Source: Candidatus Synechococcus calcipolaris G9 (GTDB lineage: Bacteria > Cyanobacteriota > Cyanobacteriia > Thermosynechococcales > Thermosynechococcaceae). Taken from it: DNA of 64,000 nt. The notes below the pieces were generated by a model, which searched no databases, had not been told where the DNA came from, and saw only the letters and a list, made by a program, of their open reading frames with translations. Each line of letters starts with the position of its first letter. The stretch's first letter is position 1. The DNA is taken from contig NZ_JAKKUT010000002.1 in the NCBI RefSeq assembly GCF_029582805.1, forward strand, positions 1,761,747-1,825,746, given 5' to 3'. Of the stretch, positions 17,214 to 17,403 are shown one piece after another. The position numbers were made by a program, and so were the translations under genes.

Positions 17214-17269
17214 CTGATTGGGTGGGTCTTTGGAGCAAACACTCAGATTCCTTAATCCTCGTTACTGCA

Positions 17270-17286
17270 CCAGCCAAGGCCGTCTT
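17270..17286 (-). promoter_or_regulatory. Partial target site 1 of the crRNA-like RNA (AAG PAM plus 14-nt seed)
   Basis: Read on the minus strand, AAG (17286-17284) is followed by ACGGC-C-TTGGC-T-GG (17283-17270). Against the pseudo-spacer (ACGGC-A-TTGGC-C-GG) 12 of 14 bases match, and the two mismatches are at positions 6 and 12. The match ends after position 14. The site lies 83-99 nt upstream of the HTH start codon and would place Cascade in the 5' region of the HTH-cas8e transcription unit. TTGGCT could itself be a -35 element, though I see only a weak -10 downstream (near 17250). Confidence 0.7.
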
Positions 17287-17403
17287 CTTAAATACAATCA
17301 GGAAGGACTCAAGATGAGTTGATATCCGTTTTATTTGGCTGGAAGGAAGAAAAACCTAAAGTTTTGGGAAAAGAACAGCGTATTGGCCGGAATGTTTTTG
17401 GAG

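Follow-up and report, generated by a model that had tools for sequence, protein, structure and literature searches.

CRISPR-Cas types I-B, I-E and V-A include cas-regulating RNAs (CreR), according to two reviews (PMC12737573, PMC13131331). CreR is described there as a crRNA-like RNA beside the cas genes, with a partial match to the cas promoter region and generally without a toxin. Related modules, termed CreTA, are known from type I-B systems of Haloarcula hispanica and Halobacterium hubeiense. CreA of H. hubeiense represses the promoter of its own operon, for which it requires exactly the spacer positions 1-5 and 7-11 (PMC8501985). A handle that is kept in the first degenerate repeat (psiR1) and lost in the second (psiR2) is known for CreA repeats (PMC9458426). 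In the type I-E CreTA of Citrobacter rodentium, a guide-like element and a PAM-bearing target lie between cas3 and casA; the target is followed by a toxin ORF of 96 bp, and CreA is encoded on the opposite strand (PMC12055562). For Cascade of E. coli, PMC5904413 reports that AAG and a seed of 5-9 nt are enough for binding, that position 6 matters less and that interference needs more pairing.

The locus described here lies in a window of 64,000 nt, the whole stretch of DNA analysed, from Candidatus Synechococcus calcipolaris G9. A crRNA-like unit beside the cas genes and the lack of a detected toxin gene were shared with CreR; a PAM and seed match was also present before cas8e, in a region where a promoter is weakly predicted. 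Two sites per guide, a gene for a helix-turn-helix (HTH) protein between the site and cas8e, and an anti-guide segment may set it apart from CreR as outlined in the two reviews. The seed rule of positions 1-5 and 7-11, a predicted autorepression and the psiR1/psiR2 decay resembled CreTA of Haloarcula and Halobacterium, from which the locus differed in that no toxin was found, that the system is of type I-E and that the target lies before cas8e. The position between cas3 and cas8e was shared with Citrobacter rodentium; in contrast to that module, guide and target were on the same strand and no ORF comparable to the 96-bp toxin ORF was found. No paper on a cyanobacterial CreR was found in the open-access literature. 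If the reading favoured below is correct, type I-E systems of cyanobacteria also use RNA-guided self-repression, and a single guide is directed at two targets within the locus that encodes it; a simple seed-swap test is available for this reading.

Guide unit and matching sites

The genome was 3.3 Mb in size and cyanobacterial, as were all named relatives. Its type I-E system comprised cas3, cas8e, cas11, cas7, cas5, cas6e, cas1 and an array of 48 repeats ATTGTCCCCACACCCGTGGGGGTGAACCG on the minus strand (6275..9245). We take the crRNA strand to be minus, an orientation assigned from the usual form of type I-E repeats. Duplicated spacers were present at 7990-7053 of the array, two pairs lying side by side and two recurring further apart, and are a sign of recombination inside the array. 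Array spacers, searched for a PAM check, had no match in phages, and three spacer patterns had none in viral contigs; cas8e was not detected in viral contigs. The upstream neighbour of the guide was cas3 (17578..20289, minus), recognised by Pfam Cas3_HD and Cas3_C and by PADLOC as Cas3e. The first large gene behind site 1 was cas8e (15325..16911, minus). In line with it was a gene of 86 aa for a probable small DNA-binding protein of HTH type (16927..17187, minus).

The interval between cas3 and cas8e held a crRNA-like unit on the minus strand, in which a 33-nt spacer was flanked by two degenerate versions of the local CRISPR repeat. In psiR1 (17468..17496) the stem was kept and the 8-nt handle was retained as GTGAACCA, compared with GTGAACCG in the array. 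The guide spacer ACGGCATTGGCCGG occupied 17435..17467, beginning at 17467 with the seed ACGGC-A-TTGGC-C-GG. In psiR2 (17402..17434) the handle had decayed to GTGACATC and was lost.

Two places with an AAG PAM and a seed match were detected on the same strand. Site 1, AAGACGGCCTTGGCTGG (17286-17270, minus), read AAG-ACGGC-C-TTGGC-T-GG, and site 2, AAGACGGCGTTGGCGGG (17539-17523, minus), located in the predicted guide promoter, read AAG-ACGGC-G-TTGGC-G-GG. Up to position 14, the guide and the two sites differed from each other at positions 6 and 12 only, leaving a common core of the PAM AAG and spacer positions 1-5 and 7-11. Bases 6 and 12 of the spacer are those flipped out by Cascade. Past position 14, complementarity was lost, and the guide matched 3 of 19 bases at site 2 and 2 of 19 at site 1. 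The pattern ACGGCnTTGGCnGG had three matches in the 3.3 Mb genome, namely the guide, site 2 and site 1, all within 270 nt; the reversed-letter control also had three genome matches, whose places were not part of the listing. AAG followed by both five-base seed blocks occurred exactly twice in the genome, compared with about 0.1 expected per genome, and the shared core of the sites exceeds chance. Further guide targets elsewhere in the genome were rejected, as ten places with one mismatch stood against 7 for the reversed pattern overall, which is background level.

A strict sigma-70 consensus scan of 16900-17640 detected no promoter; the elements given below were predicted with a more permissive weight matrix. 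With this matrix, site 2 scored 10.1, comprising a -35-like TTGGCG (17530-17525) at seed positions 7-12 and, 18 nt on, an extended -10-like TGC-TACATT (17509-17501). At site 1, PAM and seed were accompanied by a weakly predicted promoter, TTGGCT-17-TAAGGA, which scored 3.9. Among the loci compared, an element TTnnC occupied seed positions 7-11 at each of the six guide-promoter sites, and three of the four site 1 sequences had it as well. By eye, a TGC-led -10-like word followed five of the six guide-promoter sites, the exception being Acaryochloris.

Guides and sites in related loci

Matches to cas8e were present in 24 of 388 genomes of the class, and named copies from a second collection were added. 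Among plasmids, four records carried cas8e, three of which were retrieved and two scanned. The comparison set contained 24 cas3-cas8e regions representing 23 distinct loci, with L023 and L025 both included as pieces of one contig. L021 and L024 were excluded for lack of usable DNA upstream, and L006 (114 nt) was scanned and is absent from the pair counts. Two strains of S. elongatus were represented by L079, covered by the scan, and L080, left out of it.

Exact pairs of a guide and an AAG+5+5 site were detected in seven of the 23 distinct loci, with eight sites altogether. Dinucleotide shuffles gave two pairs in 20 sets, reversed letters one and the opposite strand none. Besides the window with its two sites, the exact-pair loci were Leptolyngbyaceae RU_5_1 (L014), L017, Synechococcales bin31 (L018), Oscillatoria CS-180 (L019), Acaryochloris marina MBIC10699 pREC1 (L078) and S. 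elongatus IITB6 pIITB6_3 (L079). Matching loci of L014, L018 and L019, from which their names were taken, were L039, L043 and L044, respectively. The seeds varied between loci, and guide and site changed together, each matching locally. A repeat-like handle was present on the guide copy in every exact pair. These comparisons strongly suggest that the predicted pairing has a function.

The arrangement of the sites varied. A single site preceded the guide in L014, L017 and L018, and in L079 it was located behind the guide and before cas8e. The two-site order was found in the window, in CS-180, where site 1 had three seed mismatches, and in Acaryochloris, where it had one; a second exact site was present in the window only. 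In most other regions, cas3 and cas8e were close together and no guide was present. This was also the case in Petrachloros, whose cas8e (85% identical) is the nearest among relatives in which the junction is complete.

The guide spacers of L019, L014 and L017 were 21, 21 and 23 nt long, respectively, compared with 33 nt in the window, and guides of this length may assemble a Cascade of reduced size. In the S. elongatus plasmid (L079, 4708-4920), a third repeat-like element was present before cas8e, with the AAG site behind the guide. A BrnT/BrnA type II toxin-antitoxin pair was located on the opposite strand between cas3 and the guide in L039 (Pfam) and L043 (translation). Visual inspection showed BrnT/BrnA-like DNA in L017 and L025 as well, and what look like remnants of the antitoxin start in L002 and L004.

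Predicted self-repression and alternative readings

We consider it probable that the unit encodes a type I-E CreR-like guide, with which Cascade would repress both the guide's own promoter at site 2 and the HTH-cas8e leader at site 1. The mini-CRISPR with its two repeats (17496-17402, minus) would be transcribed from the promoter just upstream. Its transcript would be cut by Cas6e, and the resulting crRNA-like RNA would be loaded into Cascade. Cascade would then bind the two AAG-flanked sites via partial complementarity of 5+5+2 bases, enough to bind and to block RNA polymerase and too little for attack by Cas3. The overlap of site 2 with the predicted guide promoter would result in negative feedback on the guide. 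At site 1, in the HTH-cas8e leader, binding would lower the amount of Cascade, either by covering a promoter or by stopping read-through from the guide. Points against this reading are the negative consensus scan and the poor matrix score of site 1, the seed mismatches at site 1 of CS-180 and Acaryochloris, the guideless junction of Petrachloros and the lack of spacer matches with which the PAM could be verified. The original prediction that guide and HTH-cas8e operon receive the same repressor input agrees with the predicted sites before both.

Site 1 may function as a weak promoter or as a roadblock. In the pure roadblock reading, Cascade would keep transcripts that begin at the guide promoter from extending into cas8e. 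We regard this as possible and somewhat unlikely. The weak promoter score of site 1 fits such a role, as do L014, L017 and L018, in which one site precedes the guide, no second exact site is present and cas8e may need read-through. It is opposed by pIITB6_3, whose only exact site, behind the guide and before cas8e, is where a target in a cas8e promoter is expected.

A different origin of the two sites had been proposed in the original prediction, namely that site 1 and its flanks arose as a copy of the guide promoter segment and then diverged, which would be compatible with the same function. The shared words on which it was built were recovered. TGCAG adjoins site 1, beginning at 17269, and is separated from site 2 by one base, beginning at 17521. 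The word TCAACTCA was found at 17322-17315 (minus), 28 nt before site 1, and at 17566-17559 (minus), 19 nt before site 2. Together with the common 17-mer, and with 14 of 28 matching bases in the downstream flanks of site 1 and site 2 in the window (P = 0.012, uncorrected for several comparisons), they speak for a duplication. However, both copies of TCAACTCA are probably due to chance. They lie at unequal distances from their sites, and an 8-mer was shared by 5.1% of 5000 random 60-nt pairs drawn from the window, with a similar 5.2% among 4038 local pairs. For the longest shared word upstream, P was 0.05 over 60 nt and 0.035 over 40 nt. Sharing of TGCAG within 15 nt had P = 0.14, and local alignment P = 0.52. 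The downstream test gave P = 0.54 in CS-180 and 0.38 in Acaryochloris, the two relatives with both sites. Moreover, site 1 of CS-180 and its Acaryochloris counterpart (15 of 28 matches, P = 0.02) were about as alike as site 1 and site 2 of the window. That the guide and both sites diverge at positions 6 and 12 is the pattern expected of selection through Cascade. Apart from one marginal result, the word, alignment and ungapped flank tests placed the likeness beyond PAM and seed near chance, and a duplicated promoter segment was not established as the cause of the likeness between the sites. The seeds of both sites are alike because both match one guide. An old duplication, eroded except where Cascade reads, may have occurred, and we judge the copied-segment origin unlikely.

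In a CreTA-like addiction module, Cascade would repress a toxin behind site 1 or 2, and loss of Cascade would harm the cell. The interval between cas3 and casA and the subtype are the same as for the Cascade-repressed toxin of Citrobacter rodentium (PMC12055562), and CreT toxins are tiny and poorly conserved (PMC8501985). However, the sequence behind the sites held no recognisable toxin. The repeat psiR1 directly follows the guide promoter, and the genes behind site 1 are the HTH gene and cas8e. The AAG of site 1 was 99 nt from the HTH start. No micro-ORF with ATG was present between them in the window, where a single frame of 9 codons, opening with TTG and accompanied by an AAGGA-like word, was detected, and the listing for the same stretch of CS-180 contained no closed frame. 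The HTH protein shared 49% identity with its counterpart in CS-180, which likewise is followed by cas8e after site 1. HTH-family Pfam matches were below the cut-off, the codon score of the gene was only 0.02, and the structure model, with two helices and a hairpin, had a mean pLDDT of 76.6 and no Foldseek hit at E <= 0.001. The HTH protein was rejected as a toxin, as related small HTH proteins stand alone elsewhere, with no cas genes in the stretch read. In Acaryochloris, the HTH gene was broken by a stop and a frameshift, and the guide, site 2 and site 1 with one seed mismatch were kept, which suggests that cas8e is the relevant target. A cryptic toxic RNA may be present behind the target. 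The addiction reading is nevertheless very unlikely, and the earlier preference for cas regulation over toxin control was borne out as the better fit.

A relic or coincidence, that is, an old self-targeting spacer with no present function, would account for the degenerate repeats and for the absence of the module from many relatives (18 of 25 regions scanned had no exact pair, one of them incomplete), and is highly improbable given a seed-site match kept in seven loci despite seed divergence and the conserved handle and stem of psiR1.

A 90-aa protein gene spanning both site 2 and the guide (17581-17309) was also considered and rejected, with a codon score of -0.13 compared with 0.21 to 0.37 in eight neighbouring genes. 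The frame had a good ribosome-binding word and was also open at the same place in CS-180; the chance of an open frame at its composition was about 1%. It had no Pfam match, and besides itself only three weak matches among the 388 genomes, of which the two inspected looked unrelated (L060 was left out). A rule that site-to-guide distances are multiples of three was broken by L017 (70 nt) and Acaryochloris (71 nt).

A segment complementary to the guide seed

Behind psiR2, a segment complementary to the seed region of the guide was detected (anti-guide, 17376..17395, minus), predicted to form a long hairpin that encloses psiR2. In the HTH-type modules of the window, CS-180 and Acaryochloris, this segment could pair with the guide seed within the same transcript and act as an RNA sponge that sets the strength of self-repression at the two sites. 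Release of the guide would thereby be tied to cutting by Cas6e and to the level of the cas8e leader RNA. We put this forward tentatively and consider it rather doubtful. If functional, the anti-guide would add an RNA layer to CRISPR self-control that was not encountered in the literature read.

The complementarity was reached in none of 2000 shuffles for the window and in none of 2000 for CS-180. It was weak in Acaryochloris, with P = 0.35 for the alignment and 0.017 for the duplex, and no anti-guide was detected in L014, L017, L018 and L079 (P from 0.10 to 0.82 in two tests). Folding z-scores were -3.9 for the window and -5.0 for CS-180. The three-sequence consensus comprised 36 pairs; in eight of them both partners had changed in one or more of the sequences, and many of these pairs were broken in Acaryochloris. 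The compensatory changes keep the anti-guide in the window and CS-180, and weakly in Acaryochloris.
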